Assembly: GCA_003557485.1 (NCBI GenBank)
Contig: PWOI01000006.1
Coordinates: 1 to 8,690, forward strand
Direction: 5' to 3'
From: Elusimicrobiota bacterium
GTDB lineage: Bacteria; CG03; SLGR01; PWQF01
Length of the DNA: 8,690 bases
Under the pieces are notes generated by a model. It searched no databases and was not told where the DNA came from. It saw only the letters and a list, made by a program, of their open reading frames with translations. Shown here one piece after another: positions 1 through 8,553 of this stretch (position 1 is its first letter; the number at the start of each line of letters is the position of its first letter). A program made the position numbers and the translations under genes.

Positions 1-425
1 ACCGAAAGGGCAACGAAAACCATAAATATACCCGCTCCTACTTTAAGCCATACGGCAAGGTTGAGGGGAGGTATGATCCCTCCCGAAAGCAGTGAAAATT
101 CCTGCCCTTTCCAGAGGCTGAAATCAAAAACACCCCGGTATAGCGCAACAATAAAAAGAATAAATACTCCGATAAGCCCGGTAACATTAATCTTTCGGAT
201 AAAATGATACGGAAGTCTTTTTACCGCCTTTTCCTGACCGTATGCCAGAAAAAGAAGAATAAAGAGGAAAGCGATTATCAATCCCCCGGCAAACCCTCCT
301 CCGGGGGAAAGGTGCCCGTAGAAAACTATATATATACCGAAAACCGCTATCGCATCCATGACCAGTGAAGTTACGGTTTTTACTATCTCTGACATTCCGT
401 TATTGTTTTTTTCTGGATGACTCAT
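1..425 (-). CDS. mnhB: MnhB/MrpB-like antiporter subunit (partial, runs off left edge)
   Basis: This gene is cut by the window edge; about 141 codons are visible. My translation begins MSHPEKNNNGMSEIVK and contains the MnhB/MbhF signature YGHLSPGGGFAGG at about residues 36 to 48, followed by hydrophobic segments near residues 49-62, 80-95 and 122-140. MnhB/MrpB is a small membrane subunit of multisubunit Na+/H+ antiporters, and its homologue MbhF sits in the ion-translocating arm of Mbh hydrogenases. The ATG at 425 overlaps the stop of the previous gene as ATGA and follows a purine-rich AAAGAAGAA stretch, so I prefer it over the internal ATG at codon 11. The gene is the last visible member of the operon. 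MrpC-, E-, F- and G-like genes would be expected beyond position 1, but this cannot be seen. Family assignment is firm; the C-terminus is missing. Confidence 0.88.
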   Translation of the reverse strand, partial: MSHPEKNNNGMSEIVKTVTSLVMDAIAVFGIYIVFYGHLSPGGGFAGGLIIAFLFILLFLAYGQEKAVKRLPYHFIRKINVTGLIGVFILFIVALYRGVFDFSLWKGQEFSLLSGGIIPPLNLAVWLKVGAGIFMVFVALS

Positions 426-943
426 TTCTTCTTTCTCAGAATTACAACAGCTCCCAGAATTGCCGAAAATAAAACCGTTACTTCACCGAATGTATCATAA
501 GCCCTGTAATCAAGAATGACCGCAGTTACTATATTGGCAATACCGGTTTCTCGGAGCCCGTGAGTAAGATACCACTCAGAGGGCACTGTTATATTTACGG
601 CAGTTTCGGGAAAAGAACCGAAAGACGGCAGGGAAATGAGGCCCCAGGCAATCCCGAACAATAAAGCGCCTACAGCAACCATCCCGAAAACTTTGACAAA
701 AAACTCCCGTTTTCCTTTAAGATCCGTAAGATCACGGTGAAGAGTTGCACGGACAAGTATGATCAGAAGAACAACTTCAACAAGTACCTGCACTATGGCA
801 ACATCCGGAGCGTTAAGAAAGACCATTATTATTGCCAGCGCAAAACCAACCGCTCCCAGCGAGACAATCGCAGAGAGAAGGTTTTTGCTTTCAATTGCTA
901 TTATTGCAGCTATTATTTTGAAAAAAAGTATCAGTTCTATCAT
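422..943 (-). CDS. Fused MbhD-MbhE protein (MrpA C-terminal / DUF4040-like), ion-arm subunit
   Basis: A 173-residue membrane protein. Its N-terminal half has the DUF4040/MbhD pattern: LNAPDVAIVQVLVEV at residues 43-57, with the acidic residues D47 and E56 that are conserved in MrpA C-terminal regions. Its C-terminal half matches MbhE or the end of MrpA: TGIANIVTAVILDYRAYDTF, then GEVTVLF. In Mbh these are two proteins; in Mrp antiporters they form the end of the large MrpA chain. Here they are one small protein without the NuoL-like part of MrpA. I place the start at the ATG at 943, which overlaps the transporter stop as ATGA. An in-frame ATG further upstream, at 1027, would add 28 residues with no family likeness, entirely inside the previous gene. 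The likely role is to link the hydrogenase module to the cation-transporting subunits. Confidence 0.88.
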   Translation of the reverse strand: MIELILFFKIIAAIIAIESKNLLSAIVSLGAVGFALAIIMVFLNAPDVAIVQVLVEVVLLIILVRATLHRDLTDLKGKREFFVKVFGMVAVGALLFGIAWGLISLPSFGSFPETAVNITVPSEWYLTHGLRETGIANIVTAVILDYRAYDTFGEVTVLFSAILGAVVILRKKK

Positions 944-2709
944 TTTAAAAGAAGTATATAAAAAACAACTACGCTGCCGGCCAGCATCCATATTAGATAC
1001 ACCGAAAGAACTCCCGAATGAGCCCACCTTAGAATTTTAATCAGGTAGAAGATGAAACCTTTAAGTACTTCATATATATCAAAAAATTTTCTTTCGGCCC
1101 AGCCGTACATTTTTTTGAATATACCTATATTCTCAATAGTTGTATAAAACTGAACTCCCGAGACTCTCATTTGCGGGGTCAGTTTTTCCCCCCCTATATA
1201 AGGACCCGACTTTCTCATATTCTTAACGCCTGTCATCAGGTATATAAGAAGCACCAATGCCACTCCGGCGGTCATAAGCCCGGCGGCAATTGAAGGCTGC
1301 CAAAGCGCCGGCGCTGCAAAACCTGGCACGGCAATTTCAAGAATGGGATATACCGTATACTGAGGAAAAACACCTATTAGAATACACATCAAGGGAAGCA
1401 ATACCAGTGCAGGGATTTCCCAGCCCAGCTTTTCACGCGCTGTTACAGTACCTGAAGAGGGCTGCCCCAAGAACGCGGCATGTGTAATTTTAACAAAAGA
1501 AGCCAGCGTAAGCACCGAGCCGAAAAGCGCTGCAGTAAACCATATAATCCAGAGGCCTGAGGGCTGTGAAGAAACTATGCCGTGGTAAACAATCCATTTA
1601 GAGACAAAACCGTTAAGCGGAGGCAGTCCGGATATTGCTACGGCCATTATTGTAAAACTTGCAAATGTAACCGGAAAATTTTTAAATAGCCCCCCTAGCT
1701 TCTCAAGCATTGCAGACCCGGCCTTTTTTTCAACAACGGAACCGGCAAGAAAAAGACCCTGTTTATATATGGAATTATTAATCATATGGAGCAGGCCGCC
1801 TGCAATTCCCAAGGCGTTCCCTGTTCCGAGGCCTATAACCATATAACCGACCTGGGAAACAGCGTGATAACCCAGGAGACGACGGAGGTTATGCTGAGAA
1901 AGAGCCATAAATACCGCAGCGATAATTGTAATTGAACCGGTGGCCATAAGAACCGTATTTCCGCCGGCTGAAACATTGAACCAGTCAGTAACTATTAACT
2001 TAAGAAGATATATTCCCACAAGTTTATCAACGCAGGCCGGAAGTATGGCTGCAACCGGCGCGGGAGCGTCTCTTGCAGTATCGGGAATCCAGGTATGAAA
2101 AGGCATAGCTCCGGCTTTTGCAAAGGCGGCCACCAGCAGTGAGAGGAAAATAACCCAGCGGAACGGGCCTCCCAGGTCTGATGATATTCCGGAAAATAAA
2201 AAACTGCCTGACCCTATAACATAAAGCCCCATTAGCCCCAGTACAAGAAAAGCGTCTGATCCACCTACGATAATAAGGGTTTTCTTTCCTATATCAACGC
2301 AGCCTGCCTGCCAGATAAGCAGGGAGAGTACAACCCCGCTTATTCCCCATGAAATCAGAAACGGAAACATATGAGCGGAAAGAAAGACTCCTGAAGCGGA
2401 AGCTGTCATCCAGCAGAAAAGGCTCCAATAAAATACAGGGTAGCCTTCCTTCAGATATTCAATTGAATAGAGCGCAACCAGAAGCGAAAAGAGTCCGGCA
2501 AGAAATACAAGCACCAGAGAGAACAAACCTCCGGCAAAAAGTCCAGACGGGCAAACATATTCCGGGAATCCCCTGACAGCACCCGCAATTGCGCTAACAG
2601 CAGACACCGCAGCAAGCACTCCACCTACCTTAAAGAACCTACCCGGAAGAAAAGCAGCAACCGCGCCCAGAAAAATCGGCACATATATTGCCAGAGCAAC
2701 CGGCATCAT
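940..2709 (-). CDS. NuoL/MrpD/MbhH-like proton or cation transporter subunit
   Basis: A 589-residue polytopic protein of the proton-conducting transporter family (NuoL/M/N, MrpA/D, HyfB, EchA, MbhH). Recognisable landmarks are FAKAGAMPFHTWIPD with K198 on TM7, VDKLVGIYLL with K229 on TM8, HAVSQVGYMVIGLG, HMINNSIYKQGLFLAG with K316, and GLPPLNGFVSKW with K371. These lysines match the central ion-conducting axis of the family. The TM5 glutamate expected in a W-E-x-x motif is a glycine here (W121-G122). After about residue 490 there is a charged stretch, a long helix-like segment around YGWAERKFFDIYEVLKGF, and a final hydrophobic segment; this tail is longer than in simple MrpD proteins. The start overlaps the previous stop as ATGATG with AAAAGGGG upstream; the second ATG, at 2706, is equally possible. 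The likely role is ion translocation coupled to hydrogenase redox chemistry. Confidence 0.93.
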   Translation of the reverse strand: MMPVALAIYVPIFLGAVAAFLPGRFFKVGGVLAAVSAVSAIAGAVRGFPEYVCPSGLFAGGLFSLVLVFLAGLFSLLVALYSIEYLKEGYPVFYWSLFCWMTASASGVFLSAHMFPFLISWGISGVVLSLLIWQAGCVDIGKKTLIIVGGSDAFLVLGLMGLYVIGSGSFLFSGISSDLGGPFRWVIFLSLLVAAFAKAGAMPFHTWIPDTARDAPAPVAAILPACVDKLVGIYLLKLIVTDWFNVSAGGNTVLMATGSITIIAAVFMALSQHNLRRLLGYHAVSQVGYMVIGLGTGNALGIAGGLLHMINNSIYKQGLFLAGSVVEKKAGSAMLEKLGGLFKNFPVTFASFTIMAVAISGLPPLNGFVSKWIVYHGIVSSQPSGLWIIWFTAALFGSVLTLASFVKITHAAFLGQPSSGTVTAREKLGWEIPALVLLPLMCILIGVFPQYTVYPILEIAVPGFAAPALWQPSIAAGLMTAGVALVLLIYLMTGVKNMRKSGPYIGGEKLTPQMRVSGVQFYTTIENIGIFKKMYGWAERKFFDIYEVLKGFIFYLIKILRWAHSGVLSVYLIWMLAGSVVVFYILLLK

Positions 2710-3911
2710 TTATTTTTTCCCCTTTTCATAGAAAAAGTCTTCTCCCTGCAGATGTCTATAAGCTGCTTTGAAGTGTAAACCTGCCTGCCGGCACCGTCAA
2801 CGGCCTGCATCCTCTCGGTGCAGCAGTAACATGGATCAACCGCTGCAAGAGTAATGGCAGCATCCGGTATAGTTCCCCCGACTACGGCATATTCATTTGT
2901 AAACACATTCATATATGAAGGCGCCCTTATTTTATGCCTGTAGGGGACTGTACCTCCGCGGCTCTTAATATAATGAAAGACTTCCCCGCGCGGCGCTTCA
3001 TGGCGCCCTATTCCCTCCCCCGGGGGAACTTCCTTTATCTGAACGCTAATATCTCCTTTAGCTTTTTTAAGGGCCTCGGCGCATTGCTTTATAATCAGAA
3101 CCGACTGCCTCATTTCTTCAAGCCGGATCATAGTTTTAGCATACACGTCGCCTTCAGTGCGGACCGGAACCGTCCAGTCTACCATTGAATAGGCCGCATA
3201 AGGCTCATCCCGGCGTACATCTATATCTATACCCGACGCCCTGGCCATCGGGCCGACAGCGCAAAATGAAACAGCCTCTTTCTTCGGAAGCGTTCCGGCT
3301 ATTTTAAGGCGGGCGCGCAGGACAGGATCATCCTCTATTGCTTTCTGAAGCATATCCAGTTTAGGAAGTAGCAGGTTCATTTCCCTGCAGAAAGCGCTGC
3401 CGCCCGCATTGTCGATATCCCTGCGCACCCCTCCTATTTTCATCATGGCGTAATGCTGGCGGTTCCCGAAGAGTTTTTCACAGAGTTCCAGCAACGGCTC
3501 GCGGTATTTCCAGCACCACATCCAGACAGTATTGTATCCCAGGAAATGCCCAGCAAGGCCGAGCCATAGCATATGAGAATGGATTCTTTCCATCTCCCCT
3601 ACAATACTCCTTATATATTTAGCCCGCAGCGGAATATCCAGTCCGCATATTTCTTCAACACAGTTCACATAGGCGAAAGGATGTGAGGTCGAACAGATCC
3701 CGCAGATACGCTCCACAAGAAAAAGAACCTGGTCGTAATGTTTGCTTTCGGCAAGTTTTTCAATTCCGCGGTGGTTATAGCCTATCTCTATATCAAGCCC
3801 AACGACCTTTTCACCTTCCACTTTGAGACGAAAAAATTCCGGCTCCTCCTGAAGAGGATGATAAGGGCCTATAGGTATTTCTGTTATCTGTCTTTTCTCT
3901 TCCTTGCTCAT
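2706..3911 (-). CDS. Group 4 [NiFe] hydrogenase large (catalytic) subunit, NuoD-like
   Basis: A 401-residue protein of the NuoD/HycE/EchE/MbhL family that carries the Ni-Fe active site for reversible H2 oxidation or proton reduction. Both nickel-binding motifs are complete: RICGICSTSH with C70 and C73, and DPCYCCTER with C361 and C364. The extra C363 is not a standard ligand. Complex I NuoD and the Mbx-type relatives lack the full set, so this should be a true hydrogenase. The N-terminal IPIGPYHPLQEEPEFFRL is the usual start of group 4 large subunits. A 34-residue tail follows R367 and begins with Met, as in E. coli HycE, where HycI cleaves at the matching R/M position; processing here is therefore likely but inferred. 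The start overlaps the NuoC-like stop as ATGA. No maturation gene is in the window. The exact group 4 subgroup needs a phylogeny. Confidence 0.95.
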   Translation of the reverse strand: MSKEEKRQITEIPIGPYHPLQEEPEFFRLKVEGEKVVGLDIEIGYNHRGIEKLAESKHYDQVLFLVERICGICSTSHPFAYVNCVEEICGLDIPLRAKYIRSIVGEMERIHSHMLWLGLAGHFLGYNTVWMWCWKYREPLLELCEKLFGNRQHYAMMKIGGVRRDIDNAGGSAFCREMNLLLPKLDMLQKAIEDDPVLRARLKIAGTLPKKEAVSFCAVGPMARASGIDIDVRRDEPYAAYSMVDWTVPVRTEGDVYAKTMIRLEEMRQSVLIIKQCAEALKKAKGDISVQIKEVPPGEGIGRHEAPRGEVFHYIKSRGGTVPYRHKIRAPSYMNVFTNEYAVVGGTIPDAAITLAAVDPCYCCTERMQAVDGAGRQVYTSKQLIDICREKTFSMKRGKNK

Positions 3912-4330
3912 TTTTTTCTCAGAGGATGCTTCGGTCCCCTGTAATCCCGGGACAACAAAAGATTTCCAAGTTCTTCATTACCCTTAAAATTTACTCCCAA
4001 AAGTTCATGCATTTCTCTTTCTATCCAACGGGCTCCTTTTATAATGTCAGATATGGTATCAACTTCAGGCTTTTTCCTCTCTGTTTTTACGCGAAGATTT
4101 ATAAAAATGCCCTTTGAATCAAGTGAAAAATGATAAAGAATTTCAAAATGTTCTTCCTCATCCATCCCGGAAGCTGTTGAAAACCGGCATTTCATTGAAT
4201 TAAAAAGAAATTCCGCCGCAAACCTGAGATCTTCAGGAGAAATTTCAATATATATCCTTTTTTCGCGGGGCCGGTCTAAGGATTTTATCTTCTTACCGAG
4301 ATTTTTTTCAAGAAGTTCTATCAGCTCCAT
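3908..4330 (-). CDS. NuoC/MbhK-like hydrogenase subunit (30 kDa subunit family, short form)
   Basis: A 140-residue soluble protein matching the NuoC / complex I 30 kDa family. The signature lies at the C-terminal end: RWIEREMHELLGVNFKGNEE at residues 101-120, then LLLSRDYRG at about 124-132, closing with PLRK at 136-139. It has no cofactor ligands and is a scaffold that packs against the large subunit in complex I and group 4 hydrogenases. The length fits stand-alone MbhK or EchD proteins rather than NuoCD fusions. Its ATG shares one base with the preceding stop (TAATG), and AAAGGAG lies about 12 bases upstream, so this start is well supported. Its stop overlaps the large-subunit start as ATGA, and the pair is probably translated in a coupled way, as befits direct partners. 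Confidence 0.92.
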   Translation of the reverse strand: MELIELLEKNLGKKIKSLDRPREKRIYIEISPEDLRFAAEFLFNSMKCRFSTASGMDEEEHFEILYHFSLDSKGIFINLRVKTERKKPEVDTISDIIKGARWIEREMHELLGVNFKGNEELGNLLLSRDYRGPKHPLRKK

Positions 4331-4770
4331 TATATTTCTCTAACTCCTTTTTTCTTTGTAGCGTCAATTTTTTCCATAAGCTTAACAATACCCGAAATCA
4401 TCACCTCAGGCTTTGGTGGACAACCCGGAACATAGACATCAACAGGTATATGCCTGTCAGCCGGGCCGGCGGCGTTATATGAATGTTTGAAAATACCCAG
4501 GGCTACACTGCATGTGCCTATAGCTATCACATAAAAAGGTTTAGGAGCCTGGGAATAGATTTCTCTGAGACGGGGCAGGTTTTTTGAATTAATTACACCC
4601 GTAACCAGCATGCAGTCCGCATGCCGGATGCTGCCTACCAGTTTTATTCCGAATCTTTCAGCATCAAACTTTGGAGTAAGTGTATCAAGTATCTCAATGT
4701 CGCAGTTATTGCAGGAAGCAGCACCGAAATGATATACCCATATGGATTTTTTAAGTGCGTTCTTTATCAT
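4330..4770 (-). CDS. Group 4 [NiFe] hydrogenase small subunit, NuoB-like, one [4Fe-4S] cluster
   Basis: A 146-residue protein of the NuoB/HycG/EchC/MbhJ family. Four cysteines fit the ligands of the proximal [4Fe-4S] cluster: C20 and C23 in ASCNNCDIEIL, C87 in IGTCSVALG, and C117 in VPGCPPKPE. There is no extra ferredoxin-like domain, as is usual in energy-converting hydrogenases, so the protein hands electrons to the Ni-Fe site through one cluster. There is no twin-arginine signal, so the hydrogenase module should face the cytoplasm. The N-terminus begins MIKNALKKSIWVYHFGAAS, close to the usual start of the family. It overlaps the NuoH-like stop as ATGA, with AGGA just upstream. The four ligands are intact and the assignment is secure. 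Confidence 0.95.
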   Translation of the reverse strand: MIKNALKKSIWVYHFGAASCNNCDIEILDTLTPKFDAERFGIKLVGSIRHADCMLVTGVINSKNLPRLREIYSQAPKPFYVIAIGTCSVALGIFKHSYNAAGPADRHIPVDVYVPGCPPKPEVMISGIVKLMEKIDATKKKGVREI

Positions 4771-5672
4771 AATCCTAAAAGCGCCAGCAATACTCCGGCA
4801 GCCGCCGCAAGCGTCACCGGGCCCCAGAAAAGGCGCAGCGTCTGATTAATACGCAGCCTGGGGTTTGTATTCTTTATAAGAATTGCAATCACCAGGACAG
4901 CTATATACTTAATGACACCCGTAAAGCTCCCTATCCCGCCCATAAAAAGAATCACGGCCAGCAGGGGCAGCAAGGCCATAAGCATCCATCTTGAAACCAC
5001 AAAGAACCCCAGCGGCGGCCCTGAATATTCAATGATCGCCCCGCCCATTATCTCCTGTTCGGCTTCAGATATATCAAACGGAACCTGCATCATCTTTGCC
5101 TGGAAACAGAGTATAACCACGGCAAATGCTATTATCCCTGAAAGAGAATATATTACGGGGCCGCTTAGCCTCTGCACTGAAATTATTTCCCCTATATCAA
5201 GCGCACCGCCCGTCTTTATTATTACCACGCCCAGTGCAAGTATGAAGGGAAGTTCGTATGAAAGAGCCGTTTTCATCTCCCTGGAAGCGCCCAGAGAGGC
5301 AAGCGGGTTTGCTGATGAAGCTCCCGCCATTATCAGAGAAAAAACAGGCACTACGAGAAGGTAAACCACAACAAGTATATCCCCTATAAAACCGGAGGCA
5401 TAGAGGTTGCTGTTGAATAATATAAGCGATACAAGCCCCAGGGCCGCAAAACTGAAAGCCGGGGCCAGCAAAAATACCACCGGACTCGCACCTGAGGGAA
5501 TAAGAGTCTCTTTTTTCATAAGCTTGATTAAATCATATACAGGCTGCATTACGGGCGGACCGACTCTCCACTGAACAAGCGCGCTTACCTTACGATCAAT
5601 CCAGCTAACCGCAAGCGAGACTACAAGAGCAAACAAAATCCCGGGATAGAAAAAATACTCAAAAATTATCAT
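4767..5672 (-). CDS. NuoH/EchB/MbhM-like membrane anchor subunit
   Basis: A 301-residue membrane protein with about eight hydrophobic segments, matching the respiratory-chain NuoH family (HycD, EchB, MbhM). The hallmark loop is WIDRKVSALVQWRVGPPVMQ at residues 24-43, followed by PVYDLIKLMKKE. A second conserved acidic loop is FDISEAEQEIMGGAIIEYSG, just before the GPPLGFF segment. In the family this subunit anchors the NuoB/NuoD-like module to the membrane and forms the first part of the polar ion path, joining redox chemistry to the transporter arm. It overlaps the ferredoxin gene as ATGA with GGGTGG upstream, and overlaps the small-subunit start as ATGA. Its place directly before the NuoB, C and D genes is typical of group 4 hydrogenase operons. 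Confidence 0.95.
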   Translation of the reverse strand: MIIFEYFFYPGILFALVVSLAVSWIDRKVSALVQWRVGPPVMQPVYDLIKLMKKETLIPSGASPVVFLLAPAFSFAALGLVSLILFNSNLYASGFIGDILVVVYLLVVPVFSLIMAGASSANPLASLGASREMKTALSYELPFILALGVVIIKTGGALDIGEIISVQRLSGPVIYSLSGIIAFAVVILCFQAKMMQVPFDISEAEQEIMGGAIIEYSGPPLGFFVVSRWMLMALLPLLAVILFMGGIGSFTGVIKYIAVLVIAILIKNTNPRLRINQTLRLFWGPVTLAAAAGVLLALLGL

Positions 5673-6097
5673 TTACGCCACCCGTCAGCTTTAACGGCAA
5701 ATCTTTTGCCTACCATCTCATAACCTTCACCGGCTTGACCGGTTATTTCAACTGCCCCTTTTTTACACATTTTAACGCATTTCTGAAAATCCGTACCGTG
5801 AACCGGAAAATTACGGTAAGAAAGAATTTCTCCCGGATTTGCCCCTACGGGGCAGGCAGCGGCGCAATATTTACAGGATACACATATCATATCATGCCTT
5901 TTAAGGTCTTTTCCCTTTTCCTTTTCAAGAGCCTCTACCGGACAGGCAGCCACGCAGGGCGGGTTTTCGCAATGGCGGCATACAATCATTCTTATACCCT
6001 GCTCTATAATGCGGTATATACCCGGGAAATCATCCGCACAGCGGCGGCATCCGTAGCATTTGTCAAGGTCGATATTTATTATTTCAGTCCCAGACAT
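5669..6097 (-). CDS. HycB/CooF-type polyferredoxin with an incomplete fourth cluster site
   Basis: A 142-residue iron-sulfur protein that probably carries electrons between the diaphorase subunits and the hydrogenase small subunit. Cysteine motifs in order: C14, C17 and C20, where Phe24 stands in place of the fourth cysteine; C40, C43, C48 and C52 in CRHCENPPCVAACP, the pattern of DmsB/HycB proteins; C72, C75, C78 and C82 in CVSCKYCAAACP; then C107 and C111 in KCVKMCKKGAVE. By the ligand-sharing rule of paired [4Fe-4S] motifs, C14, C17, C20 and C111 can still form one cluster while its partner is lost, giving three clusters. The start at 6097 has AAAGGA about eight bases upstream and overlaps the FAD-protein gene by 14 bases. 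A NuoI/MbhN-like ferredoxin would be usual in an Mbh operon, so this type is a notable replacement. No transmembrane segment is seen. Confidence 0.9.
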   Translation of the reverse strand: MSGTEIINIDLDKCYGCRRCADDFPGIYRIIEQGIRMIVCRHCENPPCVAACPVEALEKEKGKDLKRHDMICVSCKYCAAACPVGANPGEILSYRNFPVHGTDFQKCVKMCKKGAVEITGQAGEGYEMVGKRFAVKADGWRK

Positions 6098-6896
6098 CCG
6101 GCAAATCCTTTACCTGTCCGTACTCAAAAACAGGGCCGTCCTTGCAGACATAATAAGGGCCTACAAGACAGTGGCGGCATTTCCCAAAACCGCAGGTCAT
6201 GTTCTTTTCAAGGGAAACAATTATTCTGTCATCTGAAACTCCCATCTTTGACAATTCAAGAGACGCGAATTTCATCATCACCGGGGGTCCCACTACAACA
6301 GCAACACACTTTGCGGCATCAACTTTTATATCCTTAAAAAGCTCTGTGACAACGCCCTGCTTTCCATCCCAGGAAGAATCGGCTTTATCCGCAGCTTTAT
6401 GAATCTCAAACTCTTCTCCCCACTCCCCGAAGCTGTCCCCGTAGAGCATATCCCGGGGGGTTTTGCATCCGTAAAGCATAATTACCCTTGGATACCTGTT
6501 CCTATCTGAAAGTATTTCGTGAAGAAGAGACCGCAGAGGCGCCATCCCGCACCCTCCTCCTACAATTAACAGTTCCCTGTCACGCAGACGGTCAAGAGGG
6601 AACCCGTTACCGTACGGACCCCTCACATAAACGATATCGGATGGTTTTTTTTCGTGAAGAACCGCCGTTGCCGCCCCCGCTTTCATAACCGTAATATCCA
6701 TCAAGGCGGTTTTTCCCGTCTTTGATGAAGGAGTAAAAGGGCATTCTCCGGCACCGGGAACAGTAAGCTGGACGAACTGCCCGGTAGAGAACTCCATTTC
6801 TTCTTCAAGTTCTATTACAAAAGTCTTTATATTCGGCGTCTCATCTATGACTTCTTTAATCTGTGCCTTTATCGGACTGTAAGGGTTTTTATTCAT
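6084..6896 (-). CDS. FAD/NAD(P)H-binding [2Fe-2S] oxidoreductase, HydG/AsrB/PyrK-like
   Basis: A 270-residue flavoprotein of the ferredoxin reductase superfamily, resembling the gamma subunit of sulfhydrogenase (HydG), AsrB and PyrK. The N-terminal FAD barrel (about residues 8-102) includes TGQFVQLTVPGAGECPFTPSS and VRGPYGNGFPLD. The NAD(P)-binding half begins with LLIVGGGCGMAPLRSLL (109-125) and includes VVGPPVMMKF (201-210). The C-terminal [2Fe-2S] ligands are C235, C240, C243 and C251 in CGFGKCRHC plus YYVC. It should exchange electrons between NAD(P)H and the HydB-like partner encoded just upstream. NADH versus NADPH preference cannot be read with confidence. The start at 6896 has AAAAGGG upstream and overlaps the preceding gene by 8 bases. 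AsrB of anaerobic sulfite reductase is the main alternative, but no AsrC/siroheme subunit is nearby and the genes that follow are hydrogenase genes. Confidence 0.92.
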   Translation of the reverse strand: MNKNPYSPIKAQIKEVIDETPNIKTFVIELEEEMEFSTGQFVQLTVPGAGECPFTPSSKTGKTALMDITVMKAGAATAVLHEKKPSDIVYVRGPYGNGFPLDRLRDRELLIVGGGCGMAPLRSLLHEILSDRNRYPRVIMLYGCKTPRDMLYGDSFGEWGEEFEIHKAADKADSSWDGKQGVVTELFKDIKVDAAKCVAVVVGPPVMMKFASLELSKMGVSDDRIIVSLEKNMTCGFGKCRHCLVGPYYVCKDGPVFEYGQVKDLPDVWD

Positions 6897-7875
6897 ACAG
6901 CCCTTTTATGGTATCTCTCATATCTATTTCACCGGGACAGGTTTTTATGCATCTTCCGCAGCCCGTACATCCCGGCATATCAAACTCCCCCTGCATAAGG
7001 CTGAATTTACAGTAGTACCTGTGCCTGAACCCCTGCCAAAGGTGAGGCCGCGGCGTAGCGCCCCCGGCAACGCGGGCATACCCCGACAGCTGGCACGAAT
7101 CCCATTGAAGAGCCTTGAGAACTTTCCTGCTGTCGGACATTTCATTAAGCACGTTGCAGTAACAACTGGGGCAGCTGAAATTACAGCCGCCGCACTGCAT
7201 GCATGTCTTTGCTTTTTCGTCCCAGTAGGATTTGTTTAAATTATTTTTTATTTTTTCTCCTATCAGGTCTTTCTGTGAATCAAGGCTGAAGTTTGATTTA
7301 ACCATTTTAACTGCCGCATCTTTTCTGTCGGAATATTTTCTTTCGTCTGAAGCGGATATTTCATCAAGTTCAACGCCTCCGAGAAGCCTTTTTCCCTCTT
7401 CGGATAATGCCTCGGCTATATACCCGTCCTTTACTGCGGAAAGATGTAAATCAGAACCTGACGCCCCGTAAGGGGAACCTCCGGTAGAAACACAGAAACA
7501 GGTCTCTGCAGGTGAGTTGCAGTCAACGGAAATAAGGGTAACTCTATCCCTGAAACTCTTATAGACCGTATCAACGGGCTCCTGCTCAATCATTATGCTG
7601 TCAAAAATTCCTTTCAGGGCATTCAGATCACAGCCTCTTACACCAAGAAGAATCACCGGACCGGGAGCAAATTTTTCTTTACCTGCAACTGCATTCCTTG
7701 AAGGGAAAACAAACTCTTTTATCCCTCCCCAAACAGGAACCTTTTCAAGGTCATATTTGAAATCGTCACCGTATTCCTCAAGCAATCCGGATTCTCCGGG
7801 CAGGAAAAGCGGTTTTTCAGCGGCCCATTTTTTAAGAATCGAATCAAATTTGTCTCTTTTTATCTTTCCTTTCAT
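6889..7875 (-). CDS. HydB/AsrA-like electron-transfer subunit with two [4Fe-4S] clusters
   Basis: A 328-residue protein resembling the beta subunit of group 3b sulfhydrogenase (HydB) and anaerobic sulfite reductase subunit A. The N-terminal domain carries the family motif LLGVRGCDLNALKGIFD at residues 76-92 and a cysteine cluster VDCNSPAETCFC at 117-128. The C-terminal domain has two complete [4Fe-4S] motifs: C225, C228, C231 and C235 in CMQCGGCNFSCP, and C303, C306, C309 and C313 in CTGCGRCIKTCP. In the known enzymes it relays electrons between the FAD subunit and the hydrogenase or reductase core. Here it is followed by that FAD subunit and a full group 4 hydrogenase, so it is probably part of a diaphorase arm. 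The start at 7875 overlaps the rex stop as ATGA with only a weak GGA upstream, which suggests translational coupling to rex. Confidence 0.92.
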   Translation of the reverse strand: MKGKIKRDKFDSILKKWAAEKPLFLPGESGLLEEYGDDFKYDLEKVPVWGGIKEFVFPSRNAVAGKEKFAPGPVILLGVRGCDLNALKGIFDSIMIEQEPVDTVYKSFRDRVTLISVDCNSPAETCFCVSTGGSPYGASGSDLHLSAVKDGYIAEALSEEGKRLLGGVELDEISASDERKYSDRKDAAVKMVKSNFSLDSQKDLIGEKIKNNLNKSYWDEKAKTCMQCGGCNFSCPSCYCNVLNEMSDSRKVLKALQWDSCQLSGYARVAGGATPRPHLWQGFRHRYYCKFSLMQGEFDMPGCTGCGRCIKTCPGEIDMRDTIKGLYE

Positions 7876-8495
7876 TTTTTTTCCGTTTCACAAAGATGGC
7901 AGGACAGGTTTTCCATATCCATTGCCAGGTCCGTATGGCGCAGGTATACATCTTCAGGAAGATCAAGCGGAACCGGGGCAAAATTAAGAACTGCCTTGAC
8001 TCCGGCGCCTACAAGAGTTCCGGCAACCTCACTTGCTGCTTCTGAAGGAACAGCAATAACTCCCATATCAATATTTTTTTCTCTGACAAGTTTTTTCAGT
8101 GTATCCGGAGAGGTTATAGTCACGCCGCTCCAGTTCCGCCCTATCTTTGAAGGATCCGCATCAATAACCGCCCTGAACTCATAGCCCTCTTTTTTAAAAC
8201 CCGGGTAATAAAAAAGAGCCCTTCCAAGGTTCCCGGCGCCGATCAGTGCAAGCCCCCATTTTCTTTTAAGCCCGAGTACTTCGTCCAGAGAATCAATAAG
8301 CTCCTCAACAAAGTATCCGACACCGGGCCTGCCTTTCTTTCCCACTTCAGAAAGGTCTCTGCGTATCTGGCTGGAGGTTTTGGAGAGACGCTCTCCGAGT
8401 TGCTCGGAAGTTATCTGTGAGATGTTACGGACGCGCAGGTCTTTCAGGACCCTATTGTAAACAACTAGTCTTTCTATGGTATGTTTATTAAGCAT
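7872..8495 (-). CDS. rex: Redox-sensing transcriptional repressor Rex
   Basis: A 207-residue Rex protein, which senses the NADH/NAD+ ratio and leaves DNA when NADH is high. The N-terminal winged helix (about residues 1-78) includes TIERLVVYNRVLKDL, ITSEQLGERL, the recognition-helix region SSQIRRDLSEVGKKG, and the wing GRPGVGY. The Rossmann fold begins at GLALIGAGNLGRALF, with the dinucleotide loop GAGNLG at 86-91, followed by AVIDADPSKIG with acidic residues D112 and D114, as in NAD-binding members. The family LNFAPVPLDLP segment follows. The C-terminus carries an unusual C199-x-x-C202. A near-perfect Rex operator touches the start codon, so autorepression together with the downstream operon is likely. 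No Shine-Dalgarno sequence precedes the ATG at 8495, yet the N-terminus matches the family, so I keep this start. Confidence 0.96.
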   Translation of the reverse strand: MLNKHTIERLVVYNRVLKDLRVRNISQITSEQLGERLSKTSSQIRRDLSEVGKKGRPGVGYFVEELIDSLDEVLGLKRKWGLALIGAGNLGRALFYYPGFKKEGYEFRAVIDADPSKIGRNWSGVTITSPDTLKKLVREKNIDMGVIAVPSEAASEVAGTLVGAGVKAVLNFAPVPLDLPEDVYLRHTDLAMDMENLSCHLCETEKK

Positions 8496-8513
8496 TTGTG
8501 AATGTTTTCACGA
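8496..8513. promoter_or_regulatory. Rex operator at the rex start codon
   Basis: The plus strand reads TTGTGAATGTTTTCACGA. This matches the known Rex consensus TTGTGAA-N4-TTCACAA at 13 of 14 fixed positions; the only difference is G for A near the end of the second half. The site abuts the ATG of rex and lies about +6 to +23 relative to the start predicted from the promoter just upstream. Rex bound here would block transcription of rex and the whole hydrogenase operon when NADH is low. The match is seen directly; the binding is inferred. Confidence 0.85.
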
Positions 8514-8536: not shown

Positions 8537-8553
8537 TACCCTGATATTGTCAA
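8525..8553 (-). promoter_or_regulatory. Sigma-70-type promoter for the rex-hydrogenase operon
   Basis: On the minus strand a perfect -35 box, TTGACA (8553 to 8548), is followed after exactly 17 bases by TACTAA (8530 to 8525), a weak -10 box matching 3 of 6 consensus positions. Transcription would begin near 8518, giving a leader of about 23 bases that consists mostly of the Rex operator. A perfect -35 box, correct spacing and the position of the operator support the call; the poor -10 box lowers confidence. Confidence 0.55.

Follow-up and report, generated by a model that had tools for sequence, protein, structure and literature searches.

The stretch of DNA analysed here, the window, spans the full 8690 bases of contig C93, which belongs to a 2.07 Mb metagenome-assembled genome (MAG) of an uncultured anaerobe; the genome is 86.6% complete, and its nearest relatives are deposited as ‘Elusimicrobia bacterium’. 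It carries on its minus strand the genes of a [NiFe] hydrogenase together with those of a diaphorase, an ion module and a regulator, in the order rex, AsrA/HydB-like, AsrB/HydG-like, CooF/HycB-like, NuoH, NuoB, NuoC, NuoD-like large subunit, antiporter-like subunit, MbhD-MbhE fusion and MnhB. Adjacent genes share 1–14 bases at every junction, so that the gene set reads as a single operon, with the following features:

8496–8513, no strand assigned: predicted Rex operator TTGTGAATGTTTTCACGA, abutting the rex start codon (13/14 consensus positions)
7872–8495, minus strand: Rex, NADH-sensing repressor (NCBIfam Rex subfamily NF003995, 222.9 bits versus a cut-off of 126)
6889–7875, minus strand: AsrA/HydB-like 4Fe-4S diaphorase subunit (Fer4_22; ShyB/HydB/AsrA below cut-off; matches the solved HydB 9nez_B)
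6084–6896, minus strand: AsrB/HydG-like FAD, NAD(P) and 2Fe-2S subunit (FAD_binding_6, NAD_binding_1, DHODB_Fe-S_bind; solved HydG 9nez_C, E 9.9e-49)
5669–6097, minus strand: CooF/HycB-like polyferredoxin, proposed diaphorase-hydrogenase link (Fer4_7; best PDB matches HycB3 and HycB4 of hydrogen-dependent CO2 reductase (HDCR) and HycB of formate hydrogenlyase (FHL))
4767–5672, minus strand: NuoH-like membrane subunit (NADHdh, E 3.5e-62)
4330–4770, minus strand: NuoB-like small subunit (Oxidored_q6; NuoB subfamily NF005012 above cut-off)
3908–4330, minus strand: NuoC-like subunit (Complex1_30kDa)
2706–3911, minus strand: group 4 [NiFe] large subunit with four Ni-binding Cys and a C-terminal extension (Complex1_49kDa, NiFeSe_Hases)
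940–2709, minus strand: first antiporter-like subunit (NuoL/M/N, MbhH-like), Gly122 replacing the Glu of transmembrane helix 5 (TM5) (Proton_antipo_M; best PDB match MbhH)
422–943, minus strand: MbhD-MbhE fusion (MbhD and MbhE domains; start inferred from an ATG overlapping the preceding gene's stop)
1–425, minus strand: MnhB/MbhF-like subunit (MnhB), truncated by the contig end and continuing on contig G000:C156

Every gene named in an earlier interpretation made from the letters of this DNA (the sequence-only reading) was found at its minus-strand place, and the unbroken operon it described is borne out by the overlaps, but extends past the window, where MnhB is cut off. Its part list was correct in the genes it named but omitted the CooF/HycB-like polyferredoxin (6097–5669) encoded between diaphorase and core. 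The first 121 bases of the window are identical to the last 121 bases of C156, a contig that we located by way of a relative's NuoI-like protein and take as the adjoining one, since such an exact overlap is the usual sign of neighbouring contigs. On C156 follow the genes for MnhC, the second antiporter subunit, MnhE, MnhF and MnhG, then those for a NuoI-like protein carrying a pair of 4Fe-4S motifs (2[4Fe-4S]), for a protease of HycI type and for HypA; HycI, HypA and the small Mnh genes were assigned by order, length, sequence and the Pfam hits of the matching genes in the relative L020. The operon is thus complete across two contigs. The idea of a missing NuoI/ferredoxin subunit was discarded with C156, as its NuoI-like product means that the usual ferredoxin-side subunit is present. 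In one Omnitrophota genome, a PhoU-domain gene (L132:15728–16375) lies between the Mnh-like and NuoI-like genes.

Judged by its sequence, the enzyme is a group 4 [NiFe] hydrogenase, with a NuoD-like large subunit (3911–2706) bearing two CxxC Ni-Fe motifs. Its nickel ligands C70, C73, C361 and C364, which complex I NuoD proteins do not have, were invariant in 84 aligned relatives (one row gapped at the last two), and the group 4 partner set is complete, with NuoB, NuoC and NuoH in the window and the NuoI-like subunit on C156, in agreement with the full core and four intact nickel-binding cysteines recognized before. The C-terminal extension beyond the DPCYCC motif fits the HycI-type protease encoded in the operon. 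Large-subunit identity was 56–75% to relatives, 40.7% to Pyrococcus furiosus MbhL, the best-matching solved large subunit, and 34.9% to HycE. In the tree, the protein falls into a clade of its relatives that excludes Mbh, FHL and complex I, with long deep branches whose order is unsure. Two other families of the phylum (L021, L022, L024, L025, L027) encode NuoC and the large subunit as one fused protein, and no rex was seen beside the operon there.

The P. furiosus Mbh (group 4d, 6cfw) shares with this operon the NuoH/B/C/D-like core, Mrp-type subunits (MbhD/E among them) and a NuoI-like subunit, but has neither a diaphorase nor a HycB-like subunit, and one MbhH-type subunit versus two here. 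The diaphorase genes, and a large subunit separate from MbhL in the tree (deep order unsure), place our enzyme outside group 4d. The contrast drawn earlier with ferredoxin-type Mbh is weakened by the NuoI-like subunit. Omnitrophota and Endomicrobia homologues, about 60–63% identical, group with the window's large subunit, and the tentative assignment to HydDB group 4g rests on this relatedness, these being lineages in which two papers report 4g. Group 4g is described as loosely clustered, of undetermined function and putatively ferredoxin-coupled (PMC5037454), and is reported, Mrp-linked, in Omnitrophota (PMC8542988), and also in Endomicrobium (PMC11257099). The Mrp link is thus common to 4g and the window, whereas diaphorase and Rex go unmentioned in the consulted passages of the three descriptions.

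The Mrp-type ion module of the sequence-only reading comprises the antiporter-like subunit, MbhD-MbhE fusion and MnhB in the window, and MnhC, the second antiporter subunit and MnhE/F/G on C156. Gly122 of the first antiporter-like subunit stands where MbhH has its TM5 glutamate, and TM5 Gly recurs in 62/75 subunits that directly follow the large subunit; the second antiporter subunit retains the glutamate, so that perhaps only one of the two is a full pump. L117:8538–10034 was noted alongside window positions 940–2709 for this Gly/Glu comparison, and several relatives have an extra antiporter-like gene, with Glu, after the large subunit.

The AsrA-like and AsrB-like proteins both align with solved sulfhydrogenase subunits (9nez_B, 9nez_C). 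Across 58 relatives, the AsrB-like subunit keeps its FAD, NAD and 2Fe-2S motifs, and across 53, the AsrA-like subunit keeps its set of cysteines; the AsrB sequence gave no discrimination between NADH and NADPH. Scores against curated families stayed below cut-off (AsrA 114 of 323 bits, AsrB 218 of 289 bits; ShyB, HydB, ShyC and HydG likewise), and the AsrB-like proteins group in a clade separate from group 3b HydG rows and from a HydG-like neighbour. The ‘HydB plus HydG’ pair proposed earlier is accordingly HydB/HydG-like, but equally AsrA/AsrB-like. P. furiosus sulfhydrogenase I (group 3b, 9nez) has a diaphorase of HydB and HydG relatives with the same kinds of cofactor motifs, but is soluble, with other large and small subunits; the NuoD-like large subunit and the scores below the ShyB, HydB, ShyC and HydG cut-offs set our enzyme apart from group 3b. 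It differs from AsrABC sulfite reductases as well, with AsrA and AsrB below cut-off and an operon devoid of AsrC. The likeness to AsrA/AsrB and ShyB/HydB might suggest a membrane hydrogenase joined to a system that reduces sulfite or polysulfide (AsrABC or sulfhydrogenase-like). This appears very far-fetched to us, given that neither AsrC nor another sulfite reductase catalytic subunit was found in the operon or among the C156 genes and that no family cut-off was reached. In PDB comparison, the CooF-like subunit most resembles HycB subunits.

How firmly the diaphorase genes are tied to the hydrogenase was assessed in 80 relatives, 43 of which had more than 5 kb of upstream DNA. CooF, NuoH and NuoB lay upstream in 43/43 of these readable relatives, preceded by AsrA and AsrB in 41. 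In the exception L050, AsrA and AsrB are present, but three genes are inserted between AsrB and CooF (L050:3912–6847), including two of 668 and 310 residues without Pfam match. L081 (CP070807.1) was dismissed as a diaphorase-less relative, because its AsrB is present in two separated pieces, broken at residues 213/214: residues 4–213 lie with AsrA 0.6 Mb away, whereas residues 214–270 are still beside CooF. The split AsrB (L081 and L124; single-contig MAG) reflects either a rearrangement or an assembly fault.

A less selected sample was provided by 145 Omnitrophota genomes, for which the large-subunit and AsrB lists were cross-matched by hand. Large subunits of at least 56% identity were encoded in 31 genomes, and all 27 AsrB matches (E <1e-80) fell among these 31, 24 of them adjacent to the large subunit and three on another contig. 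As for the remaining four genomes, one has the split AsrB, two lie near contig starts and one is masked. The masked case, G039, was rejected as an exception, as its 6.5 kb upstream consist of masked N that also produced a false 2312-residue frame. In their distances between relatives, AsrB and the large subunit agree no less well than core subunits and the large subunit (correlation 0.87 for large subunit–AsrB versus 0.78 for large subunit–NuoB, shared species history contributing to both). By gene order, then, the diaphorase genes are not chance neighbours but stably tied to the hydrogenase; the sequence-only reading had made its hybrid complex depend on HydB/HydG-like genes being kept next to this hydrogenase in relatives, and they were, in 41/43 relatives and in the Omnitrophota sample. 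A caveat on this linkage is that group 4 enzymes of 43–46% identity are common in Omnitrophota and that the one inspected had no diaphorase beside it. A more divergent system of the same order (L029:651–5085), with a large subunit about 44% identical, has AsrA, AsrB and CooF directly upstream.

The Rex protein scores above its subfamily cut-off, and the predicted operator, just outside the range 1–8495 covered earlier, matches TTGTGAA-N4-TTCACAA at 13/14 positions. The motif (13 or 14 of 14 positions) was present upstream of the operon in 22/52 testable relatives, the window included, compared with 1/909 upstream regions used as controls, where the single hit is this same site seen from the divergent gene. 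These sites span the record titles Elusimicrobia, Endomicrobia, Omnitrophota, Latescibacterota, Nitrospirota and Clostridia bins, the relatives not being independent, and most operator-bearing relatives have no rex gene in the operon. Rex control, as first proposed, is thus supported by operator sequences at the window and in relatives, to which Rex would bind. Since Rex responds to the NADH/NAD+ ratio and the operator recurs before the operon, the enzyme appears to be tied to NADH. A promoter scan of the window yielded none above threshold; a TTGACA box lies at 8553–8548.

These data bear on whether the operon encodes an ordinary ferredoxin-driven, Mrp-linked hydrogenase, as HydDB reads 4g, with the diaphorase serving, on its own or in an auxiliary role, as a ferredoxin:NAD(P) unit and merely co-expressed. 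The encoded NuoI-like 2[4Fe-4S] subunit, the putative ferredoxin coupling of 4g and MbhL as best-matching solved large subunit are all in keeping with this view. It would, however, leave the HycB-like polyferredoxin adapter without obvious use, and is difficult to reconcile with asrA-asrB-cooF being kept directly upstream across many phyla and matching core subunits in how strongly they co-vary with the large subunit, and with the operator of an NADH-sensing repressor preceding the operon; we therefore regard it as unlikely.

We instead favor, with a probability of roughly two in three, an ion-coupled, membrane-bound [NiFe] hydrogenase of group 4, for which a dedicated diaphorase mediates electron exchange with NAD(P)H and which is expressed at NADH excess. 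Electrons would pass from NAD(P)H, probably NADH rather than NADPH, to FAD and 2Fe-2S of the AsrB-like subunit, on to the 4Fe-4S clusters of the AsrA-like subunit and the CooF/HycB-like polyferredoxin, and would reach the Ni-Fe site through clusters of the NuoI-like and NuoB-like subunits, while NuoH and the Mrp-type antiporter subunits would couple this flow to H+ or Na+ movement. The layout would be that of FHL with the diaphorase replacing formate dehydrogenase, a placement suggested by the likeness of the CooF-like adapter to HycB, which joins formate dehydrogenase and hydrogenase chain in FHL. The E. coli enzyme (group 4a, 7z0s) similarly uses a HycB-like adapter to connect an outside dehydrogenase to the NuoI/NuoB/NiFe chain, but has formate dehydrogenase instead of a diaphorase and no Mrp module, at 34.9% identity. 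A high NADH/NAD+ ratio would take Rex off its operator and switch the operon on, which makes NADH to H2 the likely main direction; this would be paid for by the ion gradient unless H2 is kept low, and the reverse direction would store energy.

Several points weigh against this NADH-driven hydrogenase. Under standard conditions, making H2 from NADH costs about 18 kJ/mol (textbook potentials), and coupling may be reduced in a first antiporter subunit devoid of the TM5 glutamate. Ferredoxin could also feed the enzyme through the NuoI-like subunit, as HydDB proposes for 4g, and about half of the tested relatives showed no Rex operator. The single complex is a prediction at gene level. Finally, the genome, in which a second [NiFe] large subunit was not found, already has a cheaper H2 route in two [FeFe]-hydrogenase genes that lie close to NuoF-like genes.

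The genome also encodes an RnfD homologue and a pyruvate:ferredoxin-type (POR-type) oxidoreductase, which would make a bifurcating or confurcating enzyme, with NADH and reduced ferredoxin jointly driving H2 through inputs at AsrAB and the NuoI-like subunit, thermodynamically attractive for a fermenter. Although both input sites are encoded, we find this quite improbable, as a single flavin site is predicted, the [FeFe]-hydrogenases with their NuoF-like genes are already at hand and the related sulfhydrogenase diaphorase is not known to bifurcate.

Extending the NADH-driven scheme to the broad 4g-type clade of Omnitrophota, Elusimicrobiota, WOR-3, Latescibacterota and other uncultured lineages, its members might be Rex-regulated NADH:H+ lyases that vent NADH electrons as H2 by means of the ion gradient, a tentative generalization to which we give somewhat less than even odds. 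We know of no characterised group 4 enzyme with such coupling. If true, fermenters could draw on their ion gradient to get rid of NADH as H2, models of H2 transfer in anoxic sediments and groundwater would change, and an NADH-driven case would be added among complex I-related enzymes. HydDB gives 4g no known function, and the conserved diaphorase and NADH-responsive operator point to a specific, testable electron donor in lineages without cultured models.

The sequence-only reading had spoken of four parts usually found apart, which was overstated: the arrangement recurs across many candidate phyla and was published for Saganbacteria in 2019 (PMC6349859), so that its surmise of related clusters already known in uncultured bacteria proved right. 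The region in Saganbacteria RX5A combines a group 4 hydrogenase and its Mrp-like subunits with cooF, asrA, asrB and a molybdopterin oxidoreductase; an ‘oxidoreductase module’ was suggested and its donor left unknown, and the closest relatives of the region were said to be in Omnitrophica and Zixibacteria (PMC6349859). Compared by description, asrA-asrB-cooF with a group 4/Mrp hydrogenase is common to RX5A and the window, whereas the RX5A region adds the molybdopterin oxidoreductase and the main text makes no mention of Rex (PMC6349859). A literature search leaving aside most subscription journals and all preprints found no paper tying Rex or NADH to group 4g. The cluster type is thus already published but uncharacterised; new are the conserved diaphorase linkage, as measured here, and the conserved Rex operator. 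Reminiscent of the RX5A cluster, a molybdopterin oxidoreductase and a second AsrA-like gene lie upstream of rex in ‘Clostridia’ bins (L036:588–2657), and L040, by matching length and order, likely shares this upstream molybdopterin oxidoreductase.
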